From positions 1-56,265 of the forward strand of contig JAUNHC010000036.1 in assembly GCA_030524175.1 (NCBI GenBank): 56,265 nucleotides of DNA. The letters are read 5' to 3'. The stretch is from Eubacteriales bacterium (GTDB taxonomy: Bacteria; Bacillota; Clostridia; Lachnospirales; Lachnospiraceae). Each line of letters opens with the position of its first letter. Positions within the stretch are counted from its first letter, which is position 1. Below the pieces are notes generated by a model. That model was not told the DNA's origin. It was given only the letters and a program-made list of their open reading frames with translations, and made no database searches. This document shows positions 33,951 through 51,024 of this stretch, piece by piece. Made by a program: the position numbers and the translations under genes.

Positions 33951-34015
33951 TCTAAAGATATTCCACTTTTGTCTAAAGTATCTGCGTTGTTGCAGATATG
34001 GTTCCATGCTAGAAT
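33951..34015 (+). promoter_or_regulatory. Promoter and operator repeats of the second sugar operon
   Basis: TTGTTG (33987-33992), 17 bp, TAGAAT (34010-34015) is the likely promoter. TCTAAAG occurs at 33951-33957 and 33972-33978, exactly 21 bp apart, just upstream of the -35 box. TATCTGC (33979-33985) and its inverse GCAGATA (33992-33998) overlap the -35. The direct repeats fit activation by an AraC-type response regulator such as the one at 42683. Confidence 0.55.
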
Positions 34016-34064
34016 TTCAATAACATCAAACAAAGTAAGGAAAACAGATAGAGGAGGAGAAAAG

Positions 34065-35477
34065 ATGAAGCACAGACCAGTGATTGGTACAATGGCAGTG
34101 GGCCTGATCGGATATTGGCCCCAGTTTCCGGGAATGAAGGAATACCTGACCGGAAAGCACAGGGAGCTGCTGGATAAAATAGACGGGGAAGCAGAAATTA
34201 TTGATGCAGGTATGATAGATACCGTAGAAAAGTCAAGAGAAGCAGGCAGGAAATTTCAGTCCGCTGATGTGGATATTATTTTCTGTCAGGCAATGACCTA
34301 TGCCACCTCGGATAATCTCATACCCGCTGTACGGGATCTGGAGGTACCGGTGATCCTTTTCAATGTGCAGGAAGACAAATCCCTTGATTTCTCCAAGGTG
34401 AAGAATCTGGATGACTGGCTGGGGCATGGCTGTACCTGTGCGGGACTTCCAGAACTTTCCGCTATGCTAAGAAGATATGGGAAATGTTATGATATAGTCA
34501 CGGGCTATTTAAAGGGTGACGCTGCTGTGGATGAGGCTGTGGTGAGGTGGGTAAAAGCCGCAGGCATAAGGCGGAAGCTGAAAACCACAAACGCAGGTAT
34601 TCTTGGAAGACAGTATCTGGGTATGATGGATCTGTACCTGGACGAGAACGCAGTGATGAAGCAGTTTGGCATGATGACACGGTTCCTCATGTGGGAGGAC
34701 GTGATCGCCCTGTCGGAGCAGGTCACAGAAGAGGAAAAGCGGCAGTATACAGAAAAGATGAAAGAAATCTTTGACATACCGGCAGCTGTTTCCCATGAAG
34801 AGCTTGAAAATATTGCGGTGATGTATGGCGGATATTTGAAGCTTGCAGAGCAGAATCATTTATCCATACTGGCAAACCATTTTGAAAAGCAGATGACAGG
34901 TAAAGAAGTGGATTTGATGGCAGCGCTCAATCCGGCCCATACCATGCTGATCCACGATGGTTTAGCCTGTACGGTAGAGGGGGATATCAAAGGCGCGGTT
35001 GCCATGACCATCCTGAAAGCCATGGGAGGAGATGCCAATTTAACAGAGCTGTATTCTATGGATTTTAATGATGATACTTGTATCATCGGACACAGCGGCG
35101 CATCTGACCCCATGATTTCTGATAAGAGGCCGGTACTGAAGAAGACCAGTGTGTTCCATGGGAAATCAGGCAAAGGTTTTACCACTCAGGCTGTGCCGAG
35201 AAAAGGCCCCATAACCATGCTGGCGCTTACCATGGAGGAGGACGGTACTTTTAAGATGGTTGCGGCAGAAGGAGAAGTGGTGGATGGAGAAATCCTGAAT
35301 CTGGGTGATACAAACTGCCGGGTGAAGTTTCCGGTTCCAATGCGTGAATTTATTAACCGCTGGAGTATGGAGGGACCTTCTCATCACGGAGTGATGGGAA
35401 GCGGAGCACATGTGCGTGACCTGGAAGCCGCGGCAAAGGTTCTGGGAGTAAGGATAGAAGTTATTACCAGGCTGTAA
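34065..35477 (+). CDS. L-arabinose/L-fucose isomerase family protein
   Basis: A 470-residue relative of the protein at 10756-12255 and the first gene of the second sugar operon. Corresponding ligand words are TVEGDIKGAVAM (Glu), SMDFNDDTCIIGHSG (Asp and His) and PSHHGVMGSGAH (His). It probably isomerises the sugar imported by the following transporter; its exact substrate is not visible. The start at 34065 follows GAGGAGGAG; a frame reaching back to 33969 would run through the promoter and is rejected. A 66-bp gap leads to the ATPase gene. Confidence 0.75.
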   Translation: MKHRPVIGTMAVGLIGYWPQFPGMKEYLTGKHRELLDKIDGEAEIIDAGMIDTVEKSREAGRKFQSADVDIIFCQAMTYATSDNLIPAVRDLEVPVILFNVQEDKSLDFSKVKNLDDWLGHGCTCAGLPELSAMLRRYGKCYDIVTGYLKGDAAVDEAVVRWVKAAGIRRKLKTTNAGILGRQYLGMMDLYLDENAVMKQFGMMTRFLMWEDVIALSEQVTEEEKRQYTEKMKEIFDIPAAVSHEELENIAVMYGGYLKLAEQNHLSILANHFEKQMTGKEVDLMAALNPAHTMLIHDGLACTVEGDIKGAVAMTILKAMGGDANLTELYSMDFNDDTCIIGHSGASDPMISDKRPVLKKTSVFHGKSGKGFTTQAVPRKGPITMLALTMEEDGTFKMVAAEGEVVDGEILNLGDTNCRVKFPVPMREFINRWSMEGPSHHGVMGSGAHVRDLEAAAKVLGVRIEVITRL

Positions 35478-35543: not shown

Positions 35544-37070
35544 ATGTCGGAAGAAAATATCATTCAGGTTCAGAAGGTATCAAAAACCTATCCTGGAGTT
35601 AAAGCTTTAAATGACATGATGCTGACAGTGAAAAAAGGAGAAGTCCATGCCCTTGTGGGAGAAAACGGTGCGGGAAAATCCACCCTTATTAAGGTTCTGG
35701 CAGGAGTCATAAACCCGGACGAGGGTGCACAAATCCGAATTGCCGGAGAAACAGTAAAGCAGCTCACACCTATTGAATCTGTGAAAAGAGGAATTTCCGT
35801 TATCTTTCAGGATTTCAGTTTATTCCAAAACCTGTCCGTGGCGGAGAATATCCTTTTTGGTGACCAGATTCTGAATAACGTCAAGGTACTTGACTATAAG
35901 AAAATGAGGGCGAAGGCAAAAGAGGTTCTTGATGAAATGGAACTGGATCTGGACTTAAATGCTGTTGTTGGTGAACTGCCTGTGGCAAAGCACCAGATGA
36001 TCGCCATCGCAAGAGCGATTATACAGAATTCCCGTCTTATCATAATGGATGAACCTACTTCTACTTTGTCCGGGGCTGAGGTGGAACATTTGTTCCGGAT
36101 TATCCGCAGACTGACTGGAAAGGGGATATCTGTACTGTTTGTCAGCCATAAGCTGAAAGAATTGTTTACCATTGCAGAGCGGTTCACTATTATGAGAGAC
36201 GGAAATTACATAGGGACCTTTCGGAAAGAAGAACTGGATGAAGAAAAACTCATATCTCATATGGTGGGCCGTAAGGTGGTTCTGGTGAAGCATGAGGAGC
36301 ATGAGAAGGGAAGGGCTATCCTTCAGGTAAAGCATTTGTCCAGAAAAGGAAATTACCAGGATATCTCATTCACTCTCCATGAAGGTGAAATCCTGGGGAT
36401 CACCGGTCTTGTGGGTTCCGGGAGAACAGAGGTACTGTCTACAATTTTTGGACTGAATCCGCCCGAAGAGGGAGAAATTTATTTTGAAAATAAAAAAGTG
36501 ACTATCCATTCCCCGTACGCGGCAAAAAAGCTGGGTATTGCCTATGTACCGGAGGACCGGCATGAGCTTGGCTTTGTGGGAAACAAGAATATGATACAGA
36601 ACATCAGTCTGCCGAATTTGAAGGAATTTTCTAATTCATTGGGCATGATCAATACTTCAATGGAAAGAGAAGTGTGTGAAAACCAGATGGAACGCCTGCA
36701 GGTGCGGCCAAAACTTCCGGAGATGCTGGCAGGAAATCTTTCCGGCGGGAACCAGCAGAAAATTGTAATTGCTAAATGGCTGGCGGCCAATCCGAAGGTA
36801 TTGATGATCGATGAGCCTACGAATGGTATTGACGTGGGGGCCAAAAATGAGATTCATACGATTATGCAGGAGCTTGCCAGGCAGGGAGTAGCCGTACTCA
36901 TGGTTTCCTCAGACTTGCAGGAGGTATTGGCCATCAGTGACCGTATATTGGTGATGCGCAGAGGAAGGCTTACAGGAGAATTTAAGGCAAACTCTGATTC
37001 AGAAGAAATTATGTCCCGGGCGTTCCTTGGAAACCCTGAGGATTACGAAGACAGACATGCAGTGTGTTAA
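35544..37070 (+). CDS. CUT2 sugar ABC transporter ATPase
   Basis: A 508-residue double ATPase. First half: GENGAGKST Walker A, LPVAKHQMIAIARAI in the signature position, and LIIMDEPTST Walker B. The signature LPVAK departs from the usual LSxGQ/LSVAQ, which is tolerated in the first half of this family. Second half: GLVGSGRTE, LSGGNQQKIVIAKWL and LMIDEPTNG, all typical. It energises the two permeases downstream. ATG 35544 follows AAGGAGG. Confidence 0.88.
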   Translation: MSEENIIQVQKVSKTYPGVKALNDMMLTVKKGEVHALVGENGAGKSTLIKVLAGVINPDEGAQIRIAGETVKQLTPIESVKRGISVIFQDFSLFQNLSVAENILFGDQILNNVKVLDYKKMRAKAKEVLDEMELDLDLNAVVGELPVAKHQMIAIARAIIQNSRLIIMDEPTSTLSGAEVEHLFRIIRRLTGKGISVLFVSHKLKELFTIAERFTIMRDGNYIGTFRKEELDEEKLISHMVGRKVVLVKHEEHEKGRAILQVKHLSRKGNYQDISFTLHEGEILGITGLVGSGRTEVLSTIFGLNPPEEGEIYFENKKVTIHSPYAAKKLGIAYVPEDRHELGFVGNKNMIQNISLPNLKEFSNSLGMINTSMEREVCENQMERLQVRPKLPEMLAGNLSGGNQQKIVIAKWLAANPKVLMIDEPTNGIDVGAKNEIHTIMQELARQGVAVLMVSSDLQEVLAISDRILVMRRGRLTGEFKANSDSEEIMSRAFLGNPEDYEDRHAVC

Positions 37071-37082
37071 GGGGGGACAAAG

Positions 37083-38069
37083 GTGAAGAAATTTTTTAAA
37101 AGAAGAGAGGCGAGTATTCTGGTTCTTTTGCTGGTGCTGATGGTTGTTTTTTCCTTCAGCAGCGACCAGTTTCTGACTCTGACCAACTTTAAGGACTGCC
37201 TGAAAAGCAGTTCTCTGAAAATCATACTGGCGGCGGGGATGTCTATAGTCCTTATAACAGGCGGGATTGATATGTCGTTGGTTGCCACTGCCGGAATGAC
37301 ACAGATGATTTTTGGCAGGCTCATGGCATATGCCGGATGGGGTCCGGTGCCAACGATCCTGGTGACGGTTCTTTTGGGCATTCTTTTCGGCTCTGTCAAT
37401 GGGCTTTTGATTTCCAAGGGCAGGATTGCACCTATTGTAGCTACTCTTGGTGTTGCCAGTGTGGTAAAAGGGATGATGTATGTCTATATGGATTTAAGCG
37501 GTTCCTCCAGTCTTTGGATCAATTCCAACGAACTGCCCGGATGGTTTTTATCCTTTGGGACAATAAAGGTGATGGGAATACCGATCCAGATCATTATTGC
37601 GGCACTCATTGTTCTGCTCACTTACTGGATGATGCACTTTACCATAATAGGAAGATGTGTCTATGCGATCGGGGGCAATAAAAATGCGGCGGAGAGAATC
37701 GGAATCAATGTAGACCTGATAACCATTTTTGTGTATGCCTATTTCGGGTTCATTCTGTCCATCGGCGTATTTGCAGATACCGCAGGAATTGCACTGTGCG
37801 ATCCCAATTCCTACAATGGTATTGATTTCGAGGTGGTTGCGGCAGTAGTTGTGGGCGGAGTTACGATGGTAGGCGGCTTTGGAAGCATTATCGGCGGAGT
37901 TCTAGGGGCATTGTTCATGGTATTTCTGAGCAACGGGCTGGGGCTGATACGTGTAAGCACCTACTGGCAGAAAGTGATCGTTGGTATAGTTATCATTATT
38001 GCCGTCAGCGTGGAGGCTGCCAAGAGACTGTACAATGAGCGGCATGCGCAGACCATTGATGTGATGTGA
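37083..38069 (+). CDS. CUT2 sugar ABC transporter permease 1
   Basis: A 328-residue RbsC-family permease: AAGMSIVLITGGIDMSLVAT near residue 57, AIGGNKNAAERIGINVDL near 200 and VVVGGVTMVGGFGSIIGGVL near 258. GTG start 12 bp after the ATPase stop, behind GGGGGG. It pairs with the following permease, as in Rha and Lsr systems. Confidence 0.87.
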   Translation: MKKFFKRREASILVLLLVLMVVFSFSSDQFLTLTNFKDCLKSSSLKIILAAGMSIVLITGGIDMSLVATAGMTQMIFGRLMAYAGWGPVPTILVTVLLGILFGSVNGLLISKGRIAPIVATLGVASVVKGMMYVYMDLSGSSSLWINSNELPGWFLSFGTIKVMGIPIQIIIAALIVLLTYWMMHFTIIGRCVYAIGGNKNAAERIGINVDLITIFVYAYFGFILSIGVFADTAGIALCDPNSYNGIDFEVVAAVVVGGVTMVGGFGSIIGGVLGALFMVFLSNGLGLIRVSTYWQKVIVGIVIIIAVSVEAAKRLYNERHAQTIDVM

Positions 38070-38080
38070 GGAGGGAAGAA

Positions 38081-39049
38081 ATGAAAAATTTAAAAAAATG
38101 GAATTACAGCTATTCTCTCCTTGCTGTTTTGGCAGTGCTGATACTGGTGATCGAGTTTGCATCCGGCGGAAAGCTTCTGACGGTGAATTCACTTACCAAT
38201 ATGGCATCCCAAATGCCGGAGCTGGGGATTTTGTCTATCGGTATGTTCGTGGTGATCCTTACTGCCGGAATTGATTTGTCCATCACCTATCTGGCATCGC
38301 TGGCAGGTGTGTGCAGTGCGTTTGTGCTGCGATGGGGAAACCAGAAGGAGATGAACCTGGTGTTTTTGTTTCTGCTGGCATTTTTAGCAGCGTTTCTGGT
38401 GGCCATGGCTGGCGGGATATTGAATGGGATCGTAGTGGCAAAGATCGGTGTACATCCAGTTCTGGCAACTATTGGCTCCTATACCCTGTTTTACGGGATA
38501 GCGAATGTGCTTACCTCAGGCTCGGCGGTTTCCGGTTTTCCTAAGGAATACCGGCTGATCGGAAAGGGGAAATTGTTTGGGTTCCTTCCGGTTCCTCTGG
38601 TGATATTTGCAGCAGTGGTTGCAGTGGCTTATATTATGCTGGATAAGACTGTATGGGGGAGAAGCGTGTATATGCTGGGCTCCAATGCAAAGGCAGCCAG
38701 ATATTCAGGCATTGATACGTTGAAAGTGAACTTTAAGGTATATCTGTTCAGTGCATTTTTCGCATTTGTGGCTGCTGTTGTCATGACAGGGAGATACTCT
38801 TCTGCAAAATCAGATTTGGGTTCTTCATATTTGCTAAAAAGTGTGGCTGTGGCGGTTCTGGGCGGAACGAACATGGCCGGTGGGGAAGGTTCCCTGAAAG
38901 GAGTGGTCATTGCGGCATGTATTATCCAGGTTATTGGAACTGGTGTTTCCATGCTTGGCCTGAGCAGTTATTTTACAGATATTCTTGTTGGGGTAATCCT
39001 GCTGGGCGTTCTGCTGATCAAGCATTCCGGCAAAACGAAGCAGCGGTAA
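38081..39049 (+). CDS. CUT2 sugar ABC transporter permease 2
   Basis: A 322-residue RbsC-family permease: IGMFVVILTAGIDLSITYLA near residue 58, MLGSNAKAARYSGIDTLK near 197 and AVLGGTNMAGGEGSLKGVV near 255. The ATG at 38081 has GAGGAGG eight bases upstream; the longer frame from 38066 begins inside the ribosome site. It completes the membrane part of the second sugar importer. Confidence 0.87.
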   Translation: MKNLKKWNYSYSLLAVLAVLILVIEFASGGKLLTVNSLTNMASQMPELGILSIGMFVVILTAGIDLSITYLASLAGVCSAFVLRWGNQKEMNLVFLFLLAFLAAFLVAMAGGILNGIVVAKIGVHPVLATIGSYTLFYGIANVLTSGSAVSGFPKEYRLIGKGKLFGFLPVPLVIFAAVVAVAYIMLDKTVWGRSVYMLGSNAKAARYSGIDTLKVNFKVYLFSAFFAFVAAVVMTGRYSSAKSDLGSSYLLKSVAVAVLGGTNMAGGEGSLKGVVIAACIIQVIGTGVSMLGLSSYFTDILVGVILLGVLLIKHSGKTKQR

Positions 39050-39089: not shown

Positions 39090-40217
39090 ATGAAGAAACG
39101 GGTTTTGGCAGTAATTATGGGGATGGCAATGGCTGTGAGTGCATTTGCGCCGGTGTATGCCGCAGAGACAGAGGCAGCAGAGAACACAGGAGAGGAAGAA
39201 ATGAAGGAGGAATCCGGCGGCGGTGTCACAGATTTTACATCTTCGGGATTCGGGAGCAAAAAGGATGAAACGCTGAAAATTCTGGTTATGCCCAAGGTAC
39301 TTGGTCTTCCGTTTTACGAGCACTCAGAAGAAGGCGGAGTGGAGGCTCAGGATGATTTTAATGTGGAGGTTATCTTTGACGGGCCCACAGAGGCTGATGC
39401 CACTGCACAGGTAACTATGCTGGAGGACTATATTGCTCAGGGGGACATTGATTGTATCTGTATCGCACCAAATGACCCGGATACACTGGCACCTGTGCTT
39501 CAGGATGCAAAGGATCAGGGGATTATGGTACAGTATTTTGACAGTATGGCAAATGATGAGGATATTGACTGTGGTGTTTCTCCGTGTACCACAGAGACTG
39601 TAGCACAGTCTTTCTGGGATTCCATGGTGGAGCAGATGGGGGATACCGGAGATTATGTAGTGTTTACCGGCGGTGCTACGGCAGCAAACCTGAACACCTG
39701 GATCGCTGCAGGGGAAGAATATGCAAAGGAAAAATATCCTGATCTCAATGAGGTCACATCAGCTATCGCCACAGAAGAATCTTCACAGATGGCATATGAA
39801 AAAGCTACAGAGGCTCTGAAAGCATATCCGGACTTAAAGGGAATTATCTGTATGTCTTCCGCCACAGGCCCAGGGGTATGCCAGGCGGTTGCAGAAGCAG
39901 GAAAAACAGAGGATATTGCTGTTATCACAATGACCACACCCAATGCCATTGCGGATTATCTGAAGGATGGTTCTTCTGATTTAAATATCATCTGGGACCC
40001 GGCCTACATGGTTTATGCAAACTGCTATATGGCCAGAATGTATTTTGACGGCGAAAATATAAACGACGGAGCTGATATTGCAGGCGCTGCAAAGGACGGC
40101 ACAGGGAAATATGCTACAACGATCAATAACCTGGAAGTGGATGAGAGCGGACTGCATATGACATTAGGCGAGCCGTTGTTTATGAACAAGGATAATGTTG
40201 CAGACTGGGATTTCTGA
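39090..40217 (+). CDS. LsrB/RhaS-type sugar-binding protein, without a lipobox
   Basis: A 375-residue binding protein. After the signal peptide (SAFAPVYAAE) there is an acidic linker to about residue 60, then the fold: LVMPKVLGLPFYEHSEEGG, VIFDGPTEADATAQVTMLED, QYFDSMANDEDIDCGVSP, and a C-terminus LFMNKDNVADWDF that closely parallels LsrB. LsrB binds autoinducer-2 and RhaS binds rhamnose; which ligand applies here is open, since the downstream genes look catabolic for a sugar. No Cys follows the signal peptide, so there is no lipid anchor. AGAGGAGG precedes the ATG. Confidence 0.82.
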   Translation: MKKRVLAVIMGMAMAVSAFAPVYAAETEAAENTGEEEMKEESGGGVTDFTSSGFGSKKDETLKILVMPKVLGLPFYEHSEEGGVEAQDDFNVEVIFDGPTEADATAQVTMLEDYIAQGDIDCICIAPNDPDTLAPVLQDAKDQGIMVQYFDSMANDEDIDCGVSPCTTETVAQSFWDSMVEQMGDTGDYVVFTGGATAANLNTWIAAGEEYAKEKYPDLNEVTSAIATEESSQMAYEKATEALKAYPDLKGIICMSSATGPGVCQAVAEAGKTEDIAVITMTTPNAIADYLKDGSSDLNIIWDPAYMVYANCYMARMYFDGENINDGADIAGAAKDGTGKYATTINNLEVDESGLHMTLGEPLFMNKDNVADWDF

Positions 40218-40233
40218 CAGACAGGAGGAAGAT

Positions 40234-41301
40234 ATGAAGGCAGCGAGAACCTATGGCGTGAAGGACGTCAGGATTGAGGATGTTCCGATCCCTGAGATTG
40301 GAGATAAAGAAGTTTTGATCAAAGTGAAATATACCGGAATCTGCGGAAGCGATCTGGGTGCTTATATGGGGGGCTGGGCACTGCCCACTCTTCCCCACCC
40401 GATCACAAAAAAGGTGCTTCCTGTGACTACAGGACACGAACCTTCCGGTGAGGTAGTTAAGGTGGGAGCAGATGTGAAAAAATGGAAGGCAGGGGACAGA
40501 GTCACAGTGGAGCCGCTTATCTACTGCGGTACATGTGAGGCTTGTAAGAAGGGTTTCCACAACCTCTGCGAGAATTCTGTGGGTGAGGACGGTTCCGGGA
40601 ATATTATCGGATTTGCGGTTGACGGAGCTTTTGCCGAATACATGGCAGCGGATGAGGAATCTGTGTACCGTCTGCCTGATAATCTGGATTATCAGGTAGG
40701 CGCCCTGACAGAGCCGGCAGCTGTGGCATTGCAGGCAGTGCAGAAATCGGGTATTCTGGCAGGACAGACAGCCGCCATATTCGGTGCGGGGCCCATTGGT
40801 CTGCTTGTGGCTATTATGGCAATGCATGCAGGTGTGGAGGATCTGATCATCTCTGATGTGGCGGAGGAACGTCTTGAAATTGCAAGACAAATCGGAGTGA
40901 AGTATGTTTTTAATTCTGCTGAAATAGATATGGTGAAGAAGATCCATGAGATACACGAAAACGGTGTGGATGTGGCCTTTGATTGTGCCGGTGTCCAGGC
41001 CACTCTGGACGCATCTCTGGACAGTGTAAAGCATAAGGGAAGAATCATGGATGTGGCAGTCTACGGAAAGGATCCTGTGGTACGTATGTCTGATATGCTC
41101 ATGAAGGGCGTCGATATCTATACGACTCTGTGCTATTCCAATGTGTACACAGAGGCTATCCGCATTATGTCAAATGACCCGGAGACCTTCCGGAAAGTGA
41201 TCACCAGAATCATTCCTCTTGATAAAATCGTGGAGGAGGGATTTGAATTCCTTCCTACAGATAAGTCACAGGCAAAGATTCTTGTATCACCGGAGATATA
41301 G
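40234..41301 (+). CDS. Zinc-dependent medium-chain sugar/polyol dehydrogenase
   Basis: A 355-residue MDR-family enzyme. Catalytic zinc ligands: Cys in GICGSD and His/Glu in TTGHEPSG. Structural zinc: CGTCEACKKGFHNLC with the four spaced cysteines. Nucleotide fold: GAGPIGLL near residue 189, with Asp in IISDVAEER favouring NAD(H). It resembles sorbitol, butanediol and threonine dehydrogenases, and in this operon probably oxidises a sugar or polyol intermediate. AGGAGG precedes the ATG; it begins 16 bp after the binding-protein gene. Confidence 0.85.
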   Translation: MKAARTYGVKDVRIEDVPIPEIGDKEVLIKVKYTGICGSDLGAYMGGWALPTLPHPITKKVLPVTTGHEPSGEVVKVGADVKKWKAGDRVTVEPLIYCGTCEACKKGFHNLCENSVGEDGSGNIIGFAVDGAFAEYMAADEESVYRLPDNLDYQVGALTEPAAVALQAVQKSGILAGQTAAIFGAGPIGLLVAIMAMHAGVEDLIISDVAEERLEIARQIGVKYVFNSAEIDMVKKIHEIHENGVDVAFDCAGVQATLDASLDSVKHKGRIMDVAVYGKDPVVRMSDMLMKGVDIYTTLCYSNVYTEAIRIMSNDPETFRKVITRIIPLDKIVEEGFEFLPTDKSQAKILVSPEI

Positions 41302-41388: not shown

Positions 41389-42432
41389 ATGTACGAGAAA
41401 TATATGACAGGCAAAAGCTACTGGAAGGAGGCACTTCCCTCCATGTCAGCCTTTGCAGATGCAAAGGAGTACGAGCTGCTGGACGGGGCAGGCAGTACTG
41501 TAAGAGCTGTTCATATGTATACAGGCAGCGGTCTGGATTTCTGGGTATATCCGGGACGGGGCCTTGATATTGGGGAGGCCAGTTACAATGGAGCGCCTGT
41601 TTCTTATGTCACGAAGAACGGAGTGAAAAATCCGGCACAGCTTTGGGCAGGTGATTTCGAAAGGAATTTTTTTGCCGGACTTTTGACCACCTGCGGTCTT
41701 GATAATGCAGGCGGGGCCTGTGAGGTGGACGGGGATTTTTTCCCCACCCATGGAAGACTGAATCTTACGCCTGCACAGAGCTATACCATTAAAAAATACT
41801 GGGAAGAGGAAAAATACTTTGTAGAGTGCTCCGGGCAGGTGAGACTGTCAGCACTGTTTGGGGAAAATCTGGTTCTCCGGAGGAGGATCCGTATACAGGC
41901 CGGTGTGTCAAAGATATTTTTAAAAGATGAGATCGTCAATGAAGGTTATGTGAAGGCAGGCTATATGCTCTTGTATCACTGCAATTTCGGATATCCTGTT
42001 GTCAGCGATGATTCTGTGGTTGTGACCAATCACAGACGGATCGAATATTTGGACGAGCAGTCCGAAAAACTAGGAAGAGACGGAAAAGAATTATCAGCGC
42101 CCGTACCGGGACAGCCCCAGAGTGCTTTTACCCGCTGGGAACCTAAAGAGGGAAGAGTAAAGGCTGCAGTGATCAACACAAAACTAAGGCTGGGAGCAGC
42201 TGTGGAGTGTGACGGGAGAGAACTGGACCGGTTCTGTGAATGGATGAGTCTTGCCTCCAATGATTACGCGGTAGGACTTGAGCCGGGAAAGAATGGGCCT
42301 GACGGACGGAAAAAGGCGTTGGAGGATGGAACAGTGATATGGCTTGGGGCACAGCAGACCCATACAGCGGAACTGGAATTCAAGATTCTGGCTGATGACC
42401 AGGCAGAGGAATATCTGGCAGCGTTGTCCTGA
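41389..42432 (+). CDS. DUF4432 family (aldose-epimerase-like) protein
   Basis: A 347-residue protein matching DUF4432, a group with the galactose-mutarotase fold: DFWVYPGRGLDIGEASYNG near 50, FFAGLLTTCGLDNAG near 94, PTHGRLNLTPA near 119 and GYPVVSDDSVVVTNH near 203. Members occur in carbohydrate operons and probably change sugar anomers, though the reaction is unproven. It is the last gene of the second sugar operon, 87 bp after the dehydrogenase, with AAGGAGA as ribosome site. Confidence 0.8.
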   Translation: MYEKYMTGKSYWKEALPSMSAFADAKEYELLDGAGSTVRAVHMYTGSGLDFWVYPGRGLDIGEASYNGAPVSYVTKNGVKNPAQLWAGDFERNFFAGLLTTCGLDNAGGACEVDGDFFPTHGRLNLTPAQSYTIKKYWEEEKYFVECSGQVRLSALFGENLVLRRRIRIQAGVSKIFLKDEIVNEGYVKAGYMLLYHCNFGYPVVSDDSVVVTNHRRIEYLDEQSEKLGRDGKELSAPVPGQPQSAFTRWEPKEGRVKAAVINTKLRLGAAVECDGRELDRFCEWMSLASNDYAVGLEPGKNGPDGRKKALEDGTVIWLGAQQTHTAELEFKILADDQAEEYLAALS

Positions 42433-42682
42433 TACGAAGACTTTTTAATCCCCTGAAAAGTGACAATGAATAGTATTATAAATTATACTAATATTTCTGA
42501 GTAAAATTGTGTAAGAGTAGAAGATTTTACAATTTCATGTTATAATTAGTGAAATTTGCGGATTATATTATAAAATATGAATAGATGAAAAGAAGATTAA
42601 GCTGCCCCATAACAGACAGAGATATTTGAGATAAAGCTGTGGAAAATCTGACATATGAGATGAACGAAACGAGATGATAAGC
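42433..42682. other. AT-rich intergenic region before the second YesN/YesM locus
   Basis: No gene is visible. The segment is AT-rich, with several possible -10 boxes (for example TATAAT near 42540) and an imperfect inverted repeat of AAATTGTGTAA and TTTTACAATTT around 42505-42535. No terminator of normal strength closes the upstream operon, so some read-through into the regulator genes is possible. Confidence 0.4.
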
Positions 42683-44278
42683 ATGAAAATTTTGATCGTG
42701 GATGACGAAATCCGTCTGGGAAGACTGATACAGAAGCTGATTCCCTGGGAAGAACTGGGGTTTACGGATATGGGCTGCTGCACGGACAGTGTGGTAGCCT
42801 TTCACAGAATACAGGAAGAGAAACCCAATATTGTGATCACGGATATCCGTATGCCAAAGATGACCGGACTGGAACTGATTGAGAAGGTGAGGGAATTCGA
42901 CAGTGAAGTATTTTTTATTATTATCAGCGGATACAGTGATTTTTCTTATGCACAGAGTGCAGTACGTTTTGGAGTGGAGGACTATATATTAAAGCCGATA
43001 CAACAGACAGAGCTGGTGGAAACATTAAAAAAAGTGGATGCCAAATATAAGAAAAAGCTTGACGAGGACACTGAAAGAGAGACACTGAAAATGGAAGTGG
43101 TGTCCGGCCGTATGAATGAGAGATGTAGATTTTTTGAGAGATTGCTTCTGGAACCGGAAAGCATAGAGATGGGAGAAAGTCTGGAAGAACTTAATGATAA
43201 ATACAGTCTGAATTTTCAGGAGAAAGCGTTTCGTGTTCTTGTTGTTAACTTCTTATATTATGAGGGAAATGATAAAGAAAAAATGATGGGATTTCTTTTT
43301 GAAAAGCTGGAACTGCTGTTGGAAGACATTATGCTTTCCGTCCGTGATGCCATCATATACAGGGGGAATCATCAGTTTGCCATTCTCATTAACGGGGATG
43401 AGGAGGCTATGTCTGTGCTTCCCCGTGCAGCCCGCAAAATCAGAAGTGAACTGATGGTTTACCAGGAATTTCTGGAGGATGCAAGGGTATATCTGTACCT
43501 GACAGATATTATGGAGGATTGCAGTGAGCTTTTAAACCTCCGGGAAACTCTGGAGAGGATTGGGATCCAGCGTTTTAATAAAAGCAATTTCAGTATACTT
43601 CAGGGCACGGGAAGTATATCTGTGAAGGACGAACTTCCGGAGAAATTCTATGAGGATTTCGTCTATTTTCTCGAGACAATGAATCAGACACAGTTGCTGG
43701 CACAGAAAGAGGAGCTTCTTCAATTTCTTGGAGAAAACAATGACAGATCAGGAAAACTGACAGCAAAAATTTACCTCAATATTCGGAACCAGTTTATCGG
43801 GCTGCTGAAGTCTATGGGGTATGAACATACAGAAAAAACAGAAAAAAACATGGACAGTATATACGATAACAGCAATGAAGCAGAGGTTCTGTTCCGGCAT
43901 ATTTTTAATACGATTTCTACGGTATATGAGCGCGTTATAAACCAGAGAAAGATGCAGGTCCAAAAGCCGGTAAACCAGGCTAAAGAATATATTGACCATC
44001 ATTACGGAGAAACATTAAGTCTTGATATTGTAGGAAGTGTCATTGGATTAAATCCGGCGTATCTTTCCAGTCTGTTTAAAAAAGAAACAGGAATGAGCTT
44101 TGCTGATTATATTGTGACAGTAAGGATCAAAGAGGCACAAAAGCTTTTGCTGCAGACGGAAGATTCTTTAAGCGATATTGCGGAGAAAGTGGGCTACAAT
44201 GACCCAAAATATTTCTCAAAGACATTTAAAAAAGAGGTAGGGATGAAGCCCAGCGATTACCGGAAATTGCTGTCCTGA
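42683..44278 (+). CDS. YesN-type response regulator with AraC output domain
   Basis: A 531-residue regulator: receiver 1-120 (VDDE pocket, ITDIRMPKMTG phospho-acceptor Asp, ILKPIQQ Lys), variable middle, and AraC HTH about 430-531 (LSLDIVGSVIGLNPAYLSSL, DSLSDIAEKVGYNDPKYFSK). The start MKILIVDDE at 42683 is typical for receivers; an in-frame ATG nine bases earlier is equally weakly supported. It heads a three-gene unit with the kinase (9 bp gap) and the ATPase-like protein. The sugar operon upstream is its probable target. Confidence 0.88.
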   Translation: MKILIVDDEIRLGRLIQKLIPWEELGFTDMGCCTDSVVAFHRIQEEKPNIVITDIRMPKMTGLELIEKVREFDSEVFFIIISGYSDFSYAQSAVRFGVEDYILKPIQQTELVETLKKVDAKYKKKLDEDTERETLKMEVVSGRMNERCRFFERLLLEPESIEMGESLEELNDKYSLNFQEKAFRVLVVNFLYYEGNDKEKMMGFLFEKLELLLEDIMLSVRDAIIYRGNHQFAILINGDEEAMSVLPRAARKIRSELMVYQEFLEDARVYLYLTDIMEDCSELLNLRETLERIGIQRFNKSNFSILQGTGSISVKDELPEKFYEDFVYFLETMNQTQLLAQKEELLQFLGENNDRSGKLTAKIYLNIRNQFIGLLKSMGYEHTEKTEKNMDSIYDNSNEAEVLFRHIFNTISTVYERVINQRKMQVQKPVNQAKEYIDHHYGETLSLDIVGSVIGLNPAYLSSLFKKETGMSFADYIVTVRIKEAQKLLLQTEDSLSDIAEKVGYNDPKYFSKTFKKEVGMKPSDYRKLLS

Positions 44279-44287
44279 CGTAGGATT

Positions 44288-45307
44288 ATGAGAGAGAAAA
44301 AATATATTTTTGACAGGATTTTTAAATTCCAGATGATATTTTTTATATGTGTGGGGCTGCTGACTGCAGGCATAACAGTCCATTCTTTAAGACAGCAGGG
44401 ATGTGTGCCTTATCCGCTGATCATACTTTTATGGTGCGGCTATCTAACCGGAGTTGGTGTTTATGTGTTGGGGATATACCTTCCATATAAAAGGTTGAAA
44501 AAGCCGTACCTGCAGTTTTCAGAAGGAATGATCTATGAAGAATTATTTGATGAGGACGTTGCAGTCTCCAGAGAGACAGATATGGCCCTTGAAAAGCTTA
44601 GGGTAATGCTGGAGAATATGAATATTCTCAATGCGTCTAAACAGCAGGCTCAGTATCTTGCACTTCAGAATCAGATTAATCCTCATTTTTTATATAATAC
44701 TCTGGAGTCCATCCGCAGCGATGCTCTGTATAATGATATGGCAGATATTGCAAAAATAACAGGAGCCCTTTCTTTGTTTTTCCGTTACACGATCTCTAAC
44801 ATGGACAAGATTTCATCACTTAGCGATGAGCTGGAGAATGTGGAAAACTATTTCATTATCCAGAAATACAGGTTTGGGGAAAGGATTGACTTGAAGATTC
44901 TTCTACCGGATACAGAGGACTGCCTGAATATGGCGGTTCCCAAGCTTACCCTGCAGCCTATAGTGGAAAATGCCATTATCCATGGAATTGAATGTCTGGG
45001 TACGAAGGGAATCATACTTATCCGTGTGGAGGTGGGACAGGCTGGATATTACATTAACGTGGAGGACAACGGCAGAGGAATACCCCTTGAGGAGCTTGAA
45101 AAACTCAACAAGAGACTTGGCTTGCCGGGGGTGGACCCGGAACCGGCAGTCAGCAGGAAAAAGGGAGGAATTGCATTAAGAAATGTTTCTCAGCGGATTA
45201 AACTTTTGTACGGAGATGAATATGGACTGAAAGTTTTTTCAACAATAGATATGGGTACGAAAGTACAGATCTGGCTTCCGGTTTCTTACGCAAATGAATC
45301 AAAATGA
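44288..45307 (+). CDS. YesM/LytS-type histidine kinase lacking an extracellular sensor
   Basis: A 339-residue kinase with two closely spaced membrane helices (about 14-32 and 42-64) joined by only about ten residues, so there is no outside domain. The phospho-acceptor is His in NQINPHFLYNTLES (near residue 137). The ATP site has ENAIIHG, DNGRGI and GGIALRNV. Its stop overlaps the ATG of the next gene (ATGA), so the ATPase-like protein is made together with it. The signal must arrive through the membrane or from a partner protein. Confidence 0.87.
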   Translation: MREKKYIFDRIFKFQMIFFICVGLLTAGITVHSLRQQGCVPYPLIILLWCGYLTGVGVYVLGIYLPYKRLKKPYLQFSEGMIYEELFDEDVAVSRETDMALEKLRVMLENMNILNASKQQAQYLALQNQINPHFLYNTLESIRSDALYNDMADIAKITGALSLFFRYTISNMDKISSLSDELENVENYFIIQKYRFGERIDLKILLPDTEDCLNMAVPKLTLQPIVENAIIHGIECLGTKGIILIRVEVGQAGYYINVEDNGRGIPLEELEKLNKRLGLPGVDPEPAVSRKKGGIALRNVSQRIKLLYGDEYGLKVFSTIDMGTKVQIWLPVSYANESK

Positions 45308-46704
45308 AAAAAACAGAATTACTTTTATTTAATAATGTATCTGTTGGTATTGAACAGTCAATGGCCTTGCATAATCTGTCTATGGTTATTTTTCAGGAAG
45401 AGATTACGGGCATTTTATATGAAAACAGCGTCTCGGGAGAGGCGCTGTTAAAGTTGCTTTCAGGGAACGGAGAGGTGAAAAACGGGACAGTTTCTTATTG
45501 CCGGAAAAAACTTACCGACCTGAAATATCTAAAAAAACAGCATAGTATTATCGGCCCGGTGCCAAATGTGATCCACACACTATCTATTATTGATAATGTG
45601 TTTTTTTCTCAGTATTCCTTGTGCATCATGAGAAAACGAGTGTATCAGACAAAGCTGCAGAAGCTCTATTACCTCTTTGACATTCATATTCCCTTTCAGA
45701 AGACGGTAGAAGAATTGTCTGTGGTGGAGCGTGTCCAGATTGAACTTCTTGCTGCTTATATATCTAAGAAAAAGTATGTGATCCTCAGCCAGTTTTCCTC
45801 CATGTTTTCTGCAGATGAGATGGAACTGCTCGTTCCGGTGATCATGAAACTGCATATGCTGGGGACGGCTGTTATAGTGGTGGACAGTTACGAGCGTTTT
45901 ATTTACCGGATCACAGATAAAGCATATATTATGAAAAACGGAACAGCAGTGGACTTTCTGTCAGGTGAAAGTCTGAATGAATATGCTGTGACGAAAGCCT
46001 TTTGCCCTTATGTCAGTCCCGGAAGTGATAGATTGGGGCAGGATAAATTGTATGAAGAAATGCAGGTGTCAGGAAAAGCAGTGCTGAGTGCGGACCAGGT
46101 GGAGACAAAGCTGTTAAAAAAGCTTAATTTTGTTCTGCGGGAAGGCCAGATTCTTAAGGTTTGCTATACGGACAGAAAACTGGCGGAAGACTTTGCCGGT
46201 CTTTTTACCGGGCAGACGGCCCTGAAGTCCGGGAATATGGTATGGAAAGGACCGGAAAGCTCACAAGGAAAGCCAAGAGTTGGGGTGGTCTATGCTGATT
46301 CGGTGCACAAAGTGCTTTATCCTGACCATACGGTGGAGTTTAATCTTCTGTATCCTGTTATGACAAAGACAAGCAGGCTGTTCTGGTCTGAAAAGTATCT
46401 GAAACATATGAAGCAGCTGCTGGCGGAAGAGCTTCCCGAAGAAATTTACGGAAAGAAGGTAAGGGACATTGATGATACATCAAAGCTTAGTCTTGTATGC
46501 GCCAAGTGGTATCTGTACCGTCCGGATATTCTGCTTTATGTAAAACCCTTTCCAAGTTTTTACTATGAGGGAGATAAGCTCACTGAAAAATGGATGAAAA
46601 AAATTGCAGCCCGGGGCACAGGAGTGATTGCGCTGGAGTCAAACTGGCCCTCATATATCGAAATTTCAGGAATTGCGAAAAATCTTGACCATTATGCAAA
46701 ATAA
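45304..46704 (+). CDS. Pseudo-ATPase shaped like a CUT2 sugar ABC ATPase
   Basis: A 466-residue protein that aligns by eye along the whole RbsA-type double ATPase but has lost its ATP motifs. First half: ENSVSGEAL (40-48) replaces ENGAGKST, LSVVERVQIELLAAYI replaces LSxGQxQxxEIARAL, and YVILSQFSS replaces IILDEPTS. Second half: DDTSKLSLVCAKWYLYRPDI (390-409) replaces LSGGNQQKVVLAKWL, and LLYVKPFPS replaces LILDEPTRG. Lys, both Walker B acids and signature glycines are gone in both halves while length and order remain, so loss is specific. It is coupled to the sensorless kinase and may link transporter state to it. Role is inference. Confidence 0.8.
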   Translation: MKKTELLLFNNVSVGIEQSMALHNLSMVIFQEEITGILYENSVSGEALLKLLSGNGEVKNGTVSYCRKKLTDLKYLKKQHSIIGPVPNVIHTLSIIDNVFFSQYSLCIMRKRVYQTKLQKLYYLFDIHIPFQKTVEELSVVERVQIELLAAYISKKKYVILSQFSSMFSADEMELLVPVIMKLHMLGTAVIVVDSYERFIYRITDKAYIMKNGTAVDFLSGESLNEYAVTKAFCPYVSPGSDRLGQDKLYEEMQVSGKAVLSADQVETKLLKKLNFVLREGQILKVCYTDRKLAEDFAGLFTGQTALKSGNMVWKGPESSQGKPRVGVVYADSVHKVLYPDHTVEFNLLYPVMTKTSRLFWSEKYLKHMKQLLAEELPEEIYGKKVRDIDDTSKLSLVCAKWYLYRPDILLYVKPFPSFYYEGDKLTEKWMKKIAARGTGVIALESNWPSYIEISGIAKNLDHYAK

Positions 46705-48049: not shown

Positions 48050-48105
48050 AGTAAATCACAGTAACGATTCACAGTAACGATACACAGGAGGAGGCGGGGA
48101 TTTTG

Positions 48106-49407
48106 ATGGCGGGGTTATTAAAAGCAGGCACAGTTCTCTCGTCAGAGAGCGGCAATAAATATACAGTAATACAGCTCCTTGGTGCAGGAGGGCAGGGCGA
48201 GGTTTATGAGGTTGAGGACGGTAAAGGCCGGTATGCCCTGAAGTGGTATTATAAGCATATGGCAACGTCTGCCCAGAAACAAATACTTGATAATCTGGCT
48301 GCGAAGGGGAGTCCGGACAGTTCCTTTCTTTGGCCGGAGGATTTGATCTATGAGGGAACAGGAAAGCCTTTTGGATATATTATGAAACTGCGTCCCAAGA
48401 ACTACAAGAGTATTGTGGATCTGATGAAAAGAAGGGCAGAGCCGTCGTTCTATGCACTGTGCAGGGCTGCATTTAACCTTACAAAGGGTTACCAGAAGCT
48501 ACATGCCATGGGGTACAGCTACAGGGATATTTCATTTGGAAATCTGTTTTTTGATCCGGATTCCGGGGAGGTTCTTATCTGTGATAATGATAATGTGTCG
48601 GTGAACGGCAAGGACGACAGTTCTGTATATGGAACGCCGCGTTTTATGGCCCCGGAAATTGTGCTGGGCAAAGTAAAACCGTCCAGAAATACAGATTTGT
48701 TTTCTTTGGCAGTGCTGCTGTTTTACATGTTTATGCTGAATCATCCGCTGGAGGGCAGGCTGGAGGCAGAGATCAAGTGCATGGATATCCATGCGATGAA
48801 CCGGTTGTATGGGACAAATCCGGTGTTTATTTTTGATCCTGACAATAAAACCAACCGTCCGGTACGGGGATATCAGGACAATGCCTTGATTTACTGGGAT
48901 TTATACCCGGAGAGTCTGAAGGAGCTGTTTATTCAGGCGTTTACTGTAGGGATCCAGTCCCCCAACCGGAGGGTGACGGAAAATAAATGGCTGGAAACCT
49001 TTGCAAATTTAATGAGCGGTATCATTATTTGTCCTTCCTGCAGTGCAGAAGTCTTTTATGATGAGGAGAAAGAGCATAAAGGTGCAGCACATATTTGCTG
49101 GGCATGTCAGAAGACAGTACCGGTTCCGGCAAAACTTGTGGCAGAAAGGAACTGTGTGTTACTTACAGCAGATACAAAATTGTATTCCCACCATCTTTAC
49201 AGCGATTACGACATGGAAACCATTGTAGGCTCGGTTGTCCGGAATCCGAAAAATCCCAATTTATGGGGGATACGTAATGAGGATAAGGTAAACTGGACAT
49301 ACGAAAAAGCAGACGGAACGCAGATTCCTGTGGCGCCTGGACGGAGTGCGGCGATCACAGAAGGAGCGAAAATCCATTTTGGCCGCAGTGCGGGAGAATT
49401 CAGATAA
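48106..49407 (+). CDS. Serine/threonine protein kinase with zinc ribbon and FHA-like tail
   Basis: A 433-residue kinase. Glycine loop LGAGGQGEVY (near 26), Lys in YALKWYY, catalytic loop YRDISFGNLFF in place of HRDxxxxN, and CDNDNV in place of DFG; the key Asp residues and Asn remain, followed by GTPRFMAPE. After the kinase comes a Cys4 zinc ribbon (CPSC...CWAC, near 305-340), then a segment like an FHA domain (NPKNPNLWGIRN, IPVAPGRSAAITEGAKIHFG). ATG 48106 follows AGGAGGAGG. It forms a trio with the vWA and PP2C genes. Confidence 0.85.
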   Translation: MAGLLKAGTVLSSESGNKYTVIQLLGAGGQGEVYEVEDGKGRYALKWYYKHMATSAQKQILDNLAAKGSPDSSFLWPEDLIYEGTGKPFGYIMKLRPKNYKSIVDLMKRRAEPSFYALCRAAFNLTKGYQKLHAMGYSYRDISFGNLFFDPDSGEVLICDNDNVSVNGKDDSSVYGTPRFMAPEIVLGKVKPSRNTDLFSLAVLLFYMFMLNHPLEGRLEAEIKCMDIHAMNRLYGTNPVFIFDPDNKTNRPVRGYQDNALIYWDLYPESLKELFIQAFTVGIQSPNRRVTENKWLETFANLMSGIIICPSCSAEVFYDEEKEHKGAAHICWACQKTVPVPAKLVAERNCVLLTADTKLYSHHLYSDYDMETIVGSVVRNPKNPNLWGIRNEDKVNWTYEKADGTQIPVAPGRSAAITEGAKIHFGRSAGEFR

Positions 49408-49423
49408 CGGAGGGAGAAGTATT

Positions 49424-50194
49424 ATGGCAGAAAAAATGAAAAGACCAGGCGGAGAACTGGCAAGCAGACCGCTGCATTTTATTTGGATCGTGGACTGCTC
49501 CGGCTCTATGTTCGGGGAAAAGATCGGTACTGTGAATCACGCAATTCAGTCAGTGATTCCGGAAATGGCAGATGCGGCAGCCAATAATCCCAATGCGCAG
49601 CTTCTGGTGCGTACATTACAGTTTTCTTCAGGAGCCTCCTGGGTGACTGCAAACCCTGTACCGGTAGAAGATTTTGCATGGGATGATCTGGAGGCCTGCG
49701 GTGTGACGGATTTGGGACAAGCATTTGAATTACTGGCTGCCCAGCTTACCATTCCGCCTATGTCGGAGCGGGCGCTGCCGCCGGTATTGGTGCTGTTGTC
49801 AGACGGACAGCCTACAGACGAATATAAAAAATCCCTGGATAAACTGCTGCATCTTCCCTGGGGCAAAAAAGCAGTGAGGATCGCCATTTCTATCGGACAG
49901 GATGCAGATGACAATGTGCTGGCTGAGTTTACCGGGAATCGTGAGCTGGTGCTCCAGGCGAACAATGCAGCCATGCTGACCCGTATGATCAAGTGGGCTT
50001 CTACGGCAGCCTCTGCCGTGTCTGCCCCTGCCAGCCGTGTCATGGGGGATAAAATGCCGGCGGAGGAGGTCTTCCTTCTGCCTGGTATTGTGGATGAGCA
50101 GCCTCCTTCTGCCGGCGGAGGCAATGGCCCTCTGGTTTTGGATATGAACAATATTCCTGACACTGACGATGTGAGCGAAGATGATGTGTGGTAG
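49424..50194 (+). CDS. TerY-like vWA domain protein
   Basis: A 256-residue vWA protein. The metal-ion adhesion site is complete: DCSGSM (near 25), Thr in GVTDLG (near 99) and Asp in LLSDGQPTD (near 128). The C-terminal 50 residues are low complexity (Ser/Ala/Pro then acidic). ATG 49424 follows GGAGGGAG, 16 bp after the kinase gene. TerY proteins with this plan pair with a kinase and a PP2C phosphatase in predicted stress or phage-response modules. Confidence 0.85.
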   Translation: MAEKMKRPGGELASRPLHFIWIVDCSGSMFGEKIGTVNHAIQSVIPEMADAAANNPNAQLLVRTLQFSSGASWVTANPVPVEDFAWDDLEACGVTDLGQAFELLAAQLTIPPMSERALPPVLVLLSDGQPTDEYKKSLDKLLHLPWGKKAVRIAISIGQDADDNVLAEFTGNRELVLQANNAAMLTRMIKWASTAASAVSAPASRVMGDKMPAEEVFLLPGIVDEQPPSAGGGNGPLVLDMNNIPDTDDVSEDDVW

Positions 50195-50208
50195 AGGAGG
50201 TGCCGTCT

Positions 50209-51024
50209 GTGAATCGTGAGATTTATGGGGAAAGTGTGCGGGGTGCCTCTCATATCCGCAATGATGTTGTCTGCCAGGACAGCAGGAAGGTGGAAATTGT
50301 GGGAGACATCGCCCTCATTGCGGTGGCAGACGGTCATGGCAGTGCCTCCTGTCCCTACAGCAAGACGGGATCTGTGATCGCCGCAAATGTATTTTGCCGG
50401 GTGATGCATGAGTTTGCAGAAAATTTTGCTGACCATATGGAGGTTCTGCTGACTTATTTAAACCGTGAGGGTGAATTAAAGGTGGCACAGGCAATTGATG
50501 CTGAATGGAAACGCAGAGTATGGAAAGTCCACACGGAGAACAAGAGGGAAAAACCGTTGAACGAAGACGGGGAGGTGGATAAGCAGCAGGTTTATAAGCA
50601 GTATGGGACAACTTTGTTAGGGCTTATGATCACGCCTGCGTTTATTTTTGCCTTTCAGCTGGGGGACGGGGATATCATATATGTGGACAGTGCCGGAGTA
50701 CAGCCGGTGATCGAGGGGGATAAGATTCTCGGGACTGAAACACATTCCCTGTGTAAAGGGGATGCGTGGAGAAACGCCTTAACTATGATACGGATGAGGG
50801 AGATTACCGGGAGTTTGCCCCATCTTTATTTCATCTCAACGGACGGTTTTGCCAACAGTTATCCTTCCCAGGAGGAGTTTCTAAAGACCTGCCGTGACTA
50901 TTTTGCGCTGATCCGGGAGCATGGTTTTGAGGTGATACCTGAGAACCTGAAGAACTGGCTCACGGAAACAAGTGCCCTTGGATGCGGTGATGATATTACA
51001 GCAGTGCTGGCATATTTTTATTGA
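50209..51024 (+). CDS. PP2C-type serine/threonine phosphatase
   Basis: A 271-residue PP2C enzyme with the family motifs in order: VADGHGSASCP (near 42), GTTLLGLMITP near 138, LGDGDIIYVDSAG near 157, ISTDGFANSY near 207 and GDDITAVLAYFY at the end. These acids bind the two metals. GTG 50209 is chosen because AGAGGAGG lies eight bases upstream; it follows the vWA stop by 14 bp. It should reverse phosphorylation made by the neighbouring kinase. Confidence 0.87.
   Translation: MNREIYGESVRGASHIRNDVVCQDSRKVEIVGDIALIAVADGHGSASCPYSKTGSVIAANVFCRVMHEFAENFADHMEVLLTYLNREGELKVAQAIDAEWKRRVWKVHTENKREKPLNEDGEVDKQQVYKQYGTTLLGLMITPAFIFAFQLGDGDIIYVDSAGVQPVIEGDKILGTETHSLCKGDAWRNALTMIRMREITGSLPHLYFISTDGFANSYPSQEEFLKTCRDYFALIREHGFEVIPENLKNWLTETSALGCGDDITAVLAYFY

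Follow-up and report, generated by a model that had tools for sequence, protein, structure and literature searches.

A degenerate CUT2-type double ABC ATPase as the proposed partner of short LytS/YesM-type histidine kinases in Clostridia

Introduction

In the CuaDSR system of Clostridia an outside binding protein meets the extracytosolic domain of the kinase CuaS (627 aa), and in the XylFII-LytS three-component system an outside binding protein is likewise the third part (excerpts of PMC10384115, the latter system as cited there). The kinase BceS is proposed to sense the conformational cycling of BceAB, an active ABC transporter (excerpts of PMC10314905, PMC7828314 and PMC3023708). In the S-component/5TMR kinases a transporter-like membrane fold within the kinase serves as receptor (excerpts of PMC11109136).

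Here we present a locus in the window, which is the whole stretch of 56,265 nucleotides that was analysed, in which a response regulator, a short histidine kinase and a double ABC ATPase without its catalytic motifs follow each other; we refer to the arrangement as a triad and to its last member as the dead ATPase. As far as the excerpts describe them, CuaDSR and XylFII-LytS share with the triad a kinase, a YesN/AraC-type regulator, an importer-derived part and the control of sugar uptake, which in the triad is a presumed function. Their third part is the outside binding protein, whereas that of the triad is an ATPase inside the cell, and the window kinase offers a loop of 10 residues in place of an extracytosolic domain on which a binding protein could act. 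Bce flux-sensing modules, in the same excerpts, resemble the triad in having a two-helix kinase without outside domain that depends on an ABC transporter, a dependence that the triad kinase would share; however, BceAB is active, whereas the ATPase of the triad is dead and of another type, and the neighbouring permeases belong to PF02653 and not to the BceB type with its large extracellular loop. The S-component/5TMR kinases are alike in that a transporter fold has become a receptor for kinases, but there, according to the excerpts, the fold lies in the membrane and inside the kinase, whereas in the triad it would be a separate cytosolic motor protein. CuaDSR/XylFII-LytS and the Bce modules are thus nearest in working principle, and the S-component/5TMR kinases are nearest in the idea of a fold turned receptor. 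In the portions of the open-access literature covered, which excludes subscription journals and preprints, no description of a dead ABC ATPase as kinase partner was found, in agreement with the earlier note on this DNA, which knew of no described system of this form.

Organization of the locus

The triad is preceded on the same strand by a sugar cluster. The features are:

33969..35477, + strand, arabinose/fucose-isomerase-like protein of the sugar cluster; true start probably 34065
35544..37070, + strand, intact CUT2 importer ATPase of the neighbouring operon (Pfam, NCBIfam, motif alignment)
37083..38069, + strand, CUT2 permease 1, PF02653 (Pfam)
38066..39049, + strand, CUT2 permease 2, PF02653 (Pfam)
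39090..40217, + strand, sugar-binding protein, PF13407 (Pfam)
40195..41301, + strand, zinc-type alcohol/polyol dehydrogenase; true start probably 40234
41389..42432, + strand, DUF4432 protein of the sugar cluster (Pfam), presumably aldose-epimerase-like
42674..44278, + strand, response regulator with receiver domain and AraC-type DNA-binding domain (Pfam)
44288..45307, + strand, short PF06580 (LytS/YesM-type) histidine kinase, catalytic residues kept (Pfam, residues, helix prediction)
45304..46704, + strand, dead CUT2-type double ABC ATPase (pseudo-ATPase), proposed sensor partner of the kinase (ORF, Pfam, alignment)

Further downstream, genes for a protein kinase, a VWA-domain protein and a PP2C phosphatase stand in a row (48103-51024), preceded by two small genes without Pfam match (46893 and 47258).

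The PF06580 kinase with its catalytic residues and the receiver-AraC regulator correspond to a LytS/YesM-YesN pair, whereas the large outside sensor region, which the other 64 kinases of this family in the genome possess as judged by frame length, is missing. Two hydrophobic helices (16-34 and 45-63) are separated by the loop of 10 residues, which bears out the earlier description of a kinase with only two short helices and no outside domain; in other loci where two helices are predicted the loop measures 2-16 residues.

The frame of the dead ATPase encodes 466 aa and is intact, without stop or frameshift. Its ATG lies inside the ATGA at 45304-45307, which also holds the TGA of the kinase gene, so that the previously reported overlap is real. 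Both ABC domains align along their full length with intact CUT2 ATPases of the same genome, and by the alignment of both halves and by Pfam the protein carries two ABC domains in one chain. The Pfam ABC_tran score of 26.5 barely passes the cut-off of 25 bits, and in NCBIfam the protein comes closest to sugar and B6 importer ATPases, though far under their cut-offs. Compared with the intact CUT2 ATPases of the genome, of which P0004 is given as example, the motifs read:

Walker A1: YENSVSGEA (P0004 GENGAGKST)
Signature 1: LSVVERVQ (P0004 LPVAKHQM)
Walker B1: YVILSQFSS (P0004 LIIMDEPTS)
H-loop 1: VDSYE (P0004 VSHKL)
Walker A2: YTDRKLAED (P0004 GLVGSGRTE)
Signature 2: IDDTSKLS (P0004 LSGGNQQK)
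Walker B2: ILLYVKPFPS (P0004 VLMIDEPTNG)
H-loop 2: LESNW (P0004 VSSDL)

The alignment confirms by computation the double sugar-ATPase scaffold in which, as first noticed from the letters, both Walker A, both Walker B and both signature motifs are replaced. The weight given to these replacements needs one correction: signature 1 and Walker A2 deviate from the standard even in the aligned working CUT2 ATPases, so that the informative losses are those of Walker A1, Walker B1, H-loop 1, signature 2 and Walker B2. The words AKW and RGTGVIALESN, said to remain, were located at 400-402 and 437-447. CUT2 ATPases have one working ATP site, which should be formed by Walker A1, Walker B1 and H-loop 1 together with the LSGG of the second domain; the window protein lacks this site, and its motifs argue against its driving a permease. 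The double ABC scaffold is thus common to the dead ATPase and the CUT2 importer ATPases (RbsA/AraG/XylG-type), but unlike these the dead ATPase has lost the catalytic motifs, has conserved residues of its own and is placed behind a kinase gene.

Motif loss and selection in the family

Motifs were scored in 115 dead and 77 intact ATPases (L018 omitted from A2; the 128-aa fragment L103 omitted; the wrongly trimmed L113, 918 aa, counted here and dropped from the trees). Among the 115 dead proteins the Walker A1 lysine occurs in 40, and in 13 it is accompanied by Ser/Thr; the first Gly of signature 2 and the Walker B2 Asp occur in none, the Walker B2 Glu in three and the H1 His in four. The scored residues are present in all 77 intact ATPases; since these were chosen by P-loop and DEP words in 69 loci, their retention of Walker A1 and Walker B is partly by construction, that of H1 and signature 2 is not. 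The dead family conserves residues of its own (weighted): Glu5 in 100%, Arg8 in 94%, a Tyr at position 64 in 85% and Phe416 in 89%; in 84 of 115 proteins Gln replaces the Walker B2 Glu.

The dead ATPase is under purifying selection in close pairs of relatives: dN/dS ranges from 0.03 to 0.47 in 38 pairs more than 60% identical, with three values exceeding 0.25. These values resemble those of kinase and regulator and in most cases exceed those of the importer genes. The window copy is in none of these pairs, and the pairs used for dN/dS and for the distances given below are not independent. The decay that the earlier note would have read from stops, frameshifts or other signs of relaxed selection in close relatives was not seen in these relatives.

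The window copy itself is a fast-evolving outlier with a terminal branch of 1.88. It keeps 60% of 40 family-conserved columns, which mostly reflect the larger clade, and is second lowest of 114 (median 97.5%, own clade 60-88%). No close orthologue was confirmed in a search of genome contigs, and seven other genomes, of the 63 in the genus, hold distant relatives only (21-24% identity). Its GC content by codon position (0.50/0.31/0.46) matches that of the kinase (0.49/0.31/0.45) and the regulator (0.50/0.27/0.46), which fits a living gene.

Pairing with short kinases

The source genome contains five triads of regulator, short kinase and dead ATPase, each near a CUT2 importer. The four further dead ATPases lie on contigs C96, C21, C77 and C102, each behind the short kinase of a regulator-kinase pair; that of C102 is very diverged and was detected solely via its kinase, and the C96 locus, read by eye, likely holds sugar genes. 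Among 69 PF06580 kinases of this genome (E up to 1e-15), frames below 400 aa occur in the five triad kinases alone, and the remaining 64 have frames of at least 482 aa. Another 46 CUT2-type double-ATPase matches (E up to 1e-40) occur in its 6 Mb, which is an unusually large set.

The pairing was also approached from the kinase side, in the source genome, seven further genomes (four chosen for their dead ATPases, three without known ones) and a draw of 50; every listed kinase with a frame below 400 aa was taken and the next gene inspected. A full-size degenerate ABC gene lies directly downstream of 33 of 36 short kinases among the matches listed, and of 15 of 18 among those listed whose neighbour was not known beforehand. 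The exceptions are G015:C24, with a half-size ABC gene that has lost Walker A and lies upstream of the regulator, and G085:C1:2626562 and G598:C2:3340984, where no dead ATPase was found and the regulators have 248 aa. Beside long kinases no dead ATPase was found in 38 loci, searched 1.5 kb to each side of the match (25 of the 64 from the source genome and 13 from other genomes); two of them (L206, L212) show part of an intact CUT2 ATPase. Fisher's test of 33/36 against 0/38 gives 6e-18, a rough figure given the choice of genomes. The tallies 33/36, 15/18 and 77/82 (below) were compiled by hand; a gene counts in them as "degenerate" if it fails a check for P-loop, SGG and DEP words, the motifs having been read for part of the genes.

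A profile built from 46 triad kinases tells these apart from long kinases in most cases; it gave left-out scores of at least 302 bits in 45 cases and of 258 in one, while the best of the 38 long kinases scored 260. It detects 82 kinases in 46 of 299 genomes of the taxonomic family, which we take to be Lachnospiraceae. The survey for regulator-kinase-ATPase triplets suggested in the earlier note thereby yields a recurrent arrangement: 77 of the 82 kinases are followed directly by a degenerate full-length ABC gene (L291 being truncated where its contig ends). In the remaining five it lies upstream in the same operon (L289), is half-size (L232, L290), is an intact ATPase (L284) or is absent (L292); the half-size genes (L232:10776-11531 and L290:1608-2372) have lost Walker A and stand in regulator-kinase loci of the same type. 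An automatic scan flagged six of 143 kinases as lacking a dead ATPase (L107, L113, L061, L065, L284, L292), of which L107 and L113 do carry one and L061 and L065 carry it upstream, separated by a chemoreceptor gene; the same scan counted two pieces of a split working ATPase in L064 as dead. A fusion of kinase and dead ATPase, suggested by frames of 922 and 923 aa in L107 and L113, was ruled out, these being open frames over a separate kinase gene.

Distribution and locus make-up

A search of named genomes with the dead-ATPase profile returned 112 relatives, and the best 80 of the 112 loci were analysed. Carriers are many Clostridia, including Anaerocolumna, Robinsoniella, Ruminiclostridium, Caproiciproducens, Caloramator and Clostridium symbiosum, and the pairing of dead ATPase and short kinase recurs in many gut and soil members of the class. 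Among the best 80 of 112 loci, 78 contain a PF06580 kinase, 74 a regulator, 69 an intact CUT2 ATPase, 71 a permease and 70 a binding protein. In 75 of these 80 the dead ATPase is immediately preceded by the kinase, a count that includes L071, whose kinase gene is in pieces in the assembly, and L080, with a gap of 154 nt. The kinase genes of L071 and L024 each appear as three pieces in a metagenome-derived assembly, which may be real or a sequencing error. L059 is cut by a contig end, L060 holds an orphan dead ATPase without kinase, and in L061, L064 and L065 a chemoreceptor gene stands between the dead ATPase and the regulator-kinase pair; a domain test in L061 found MCP and HAMP domains in this protein (L061:11853-13889). 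Several loci (e.g. L079:5457) encode binding proteins that are about 600 aa long and carry two Peripla_BP_4 domains. Within the fetched 20 kb, L163 shows a binding protein but neither a CUT2 ATPase nor a permease, and L166 has its nearest CUT2 ATPase about 7 kb away.

The dead-ATPase profile A6 matches 29 of 299 genomes of the family and, above 400 bits, 13 of 391 of the class and seven of 398 of the phylum, the source genome included. These counts are too low, since diverged members reach only 138-306 bits and thereby score no better than intact CUT2 ATPases.

Origin of the dead ATPase

When 114 dead and 77 intact ATPases are placed in a tree, all dead ones fall into a single clade (support 1.0). 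A tree of 95 sequences, comprising the most diverged members and a random sample of the others, recovers the clade with support 0.478, and its sister there is an intact ATPase of the L283 locus (support 0.999). Within the clade L284, which is intact, splits off before all others, followed by L283, then L293 with L282, then the rest. The dead ATPase of L283 retains Walker A1, and its kinase has about 218 residues between the two helices. L284:6072-7523 encodes a double ATPase with intact motifs in the first domain, LSGGNQQK and a Gln in Walker B2, directly behind a triad-type kinase of 392 aa. The earlier note had reasoned that homologues with intact ATP motifs in the same context would make the window protein a decaying transporter gene. 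To the letter L284 is such a homologue, at one of the 82 kinases; as it stands at the base of the family (support 0.478), it is read here as the starting state and is possibly ancestor-like. The series is read as a stepwise loss from a working motor, the deepest order of which is not firm.

Evolutionary partners and links to permeases

By their distances in 55 loci, the dead ATPase falls into one module with kinase and regulator (r 0.87-0.89), and a second module is made up of importer ATPase and permease (0.88). The partial correlation of the dead ATPase is 0.55 with the kinase, 0.42 with the regulator, 0.18 with the importer ATPase and -0.01 with the permease. This joint evolution, like the kinase pairing and the CUT2 neighbourhood a result of computation, marks the dead ATPase as a component of signalling and argues against a single, constant partner among the importers.

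In a few loci a permease is closely attached. A PF02653 permease gene shares 4 nt with the dead-ATPase gene in L162 and L233 and 22 nt in L247, and in L301 the dead-ATPase gene stops 18 nt from one. L289 and L290, from one genome, consist of dead ABC gene (half-size in L290), binding protein, permease, regulator and kinase, and L161 has the order regulator, kinase, dead ATPase, binding protein, permease. The fetched DNA of L289 (13.5 kb upstream and as far as the contig end), L290 (the whole 14.6-kb contig), L161 (about 40 kb) and L233 (about 47 kb) yielded no intact CUT2-type double ATPase, although L161 and L233 have ABC genes of other kinds; in all four cases one may lie elsewhere in the genome. 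No hydrophobic helix is predicted in the kinases of L233, L236, L245, L289 (start uncertain), L290 and L302, so something else must bring them to the membrane if an outside sugar is sensed. The kinase start of L246 looks like an assembly chimera at a contig end, and the zero helices of L081 are probably a threshold effect.

The segment after the Q-loop is the part of the ATPase that meets the permease. Here L-S/T-V-x-E/D-N-I-F is retained, and the mean profile overlap is 0.46 in half 1 and 0.34 in half 2 compared with 0.38 for all columns, a weak average that serves only as a hint of docking. No solved CUT2 ATPase structure for mapping the docking surfaces was among the matches listed (60 of 174 and 293).

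Proposed mechanism and alternatives

That the dead ATPase is a dedicated partner of the short kinase is held with high confidence. As the kinase lacks a part for sensing outside the cell and is found in this pairing again and again in Clostridia, the broken motor is probably its sensor. On balance we favour reading 42674-46704 as a three-component signalling system in which the dead motor would relay the state of an importer to the kinase. We infer contact of the motor with kinase and permease, the signal, the direction of control and the regulon as follows. A CUT2 importer ATPase may have been duplicated, been recruited by a short LytS/YesM-type kinase as its partner and ceased to hydrolyse ATP, so as to substitute for the missing sensor domain. 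The dead motor would sit beneath a CUT2 permease dimer, shared or in some loci its own, and touch the kinase; a sugar-loaded binding protein or a movement of the permease would be relayed through it, and the kinase would phosphorylate the AraC-type regulator, which would switch on the neighbouring sugar importer genes. Docking on the permease appears fairly probable from the neighbourhood, the dedicated permeases in a few loci and the partly kept segment after the Q-loop. Weighing against the favoured reading are the partial correlation of about zero with the permease, the moderate retention of that segment, the absent or distant importer genes in L163 and L166, the orphan L060, the intact ATPase of L284, the kinase of L292 and two other short kinases that have no dead ATPase, and the fast evolution of the window copy. 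We put forward only tentatively, at somewhat less than even chances, that a complete ABC importer has evolved into a membrane receptor, in which binding protein, permease and dead motor would sense and the kinase, in some cases without helix, would hang on the motor.

The main rival is a cytosolic ligand sensor, in which the degenerate ATP pockets would bind sugar, sugar phosphate or nucleotide and control the kinase without permease. It would account for a partial correlation with the permease of about zero, for the kinases without helix, for L163 with no permease in the fetched 20 kb and for the 13 of 115 members that keep the Walker A1 Lys with Ser/Thr. We nevertheless regard it as unlikely, because the scaffold is retained in both halves, CUT2 importer genes lie near 69 of the best 80 of 112 loci, and dedicated permease genes adjoin the dead ATPase in L162, L233, L247, L301, L289 and L290.

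That neighbourhood, together with the resemblance to an importer ATPase, would also suit a decoy that occupies the permease and throttles uptake, the kinase being merely an operon neighbour; this is improbable, as the dead ATPase evolves with kinase and regulator and not with the importer, and follows short kinases even where the importer is on the other strand or far off. Decay of a transporter gene kept by chance could be suspected from the window copy alone, given its terminal branch of 1.88, its 60% of conserved columns and its lack of a close orthologue. However, this copy has no stop or frameshift and its codon-position GC equals that of kinase and regulator, and the low dN/dS of the relatives (far below 1), the residues conserved by the family and the five copies in the source genome contradict the decay reading for the family, which makes it very improbable.

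Implications

Many such genes look like sugar ATPases to Pfam and NCBIfam and could be miscounted as transport parts, which calls for caution in annotation. The series from an intact to a fully dead motor makes a change from transporter to sensor traceable. A recognisable sensor is offered for kinases that apparently have none (82 kinases in 46 of 299 family genomes), and the proposed relay through the dead motor predicts that the fold of an ABC importer can signal without ATP turnover. If the reading as a membrane receptor is true, bacteria would possess a nutrient receptor of a new class, one that reads the conformations of an importer while nothing is transported.
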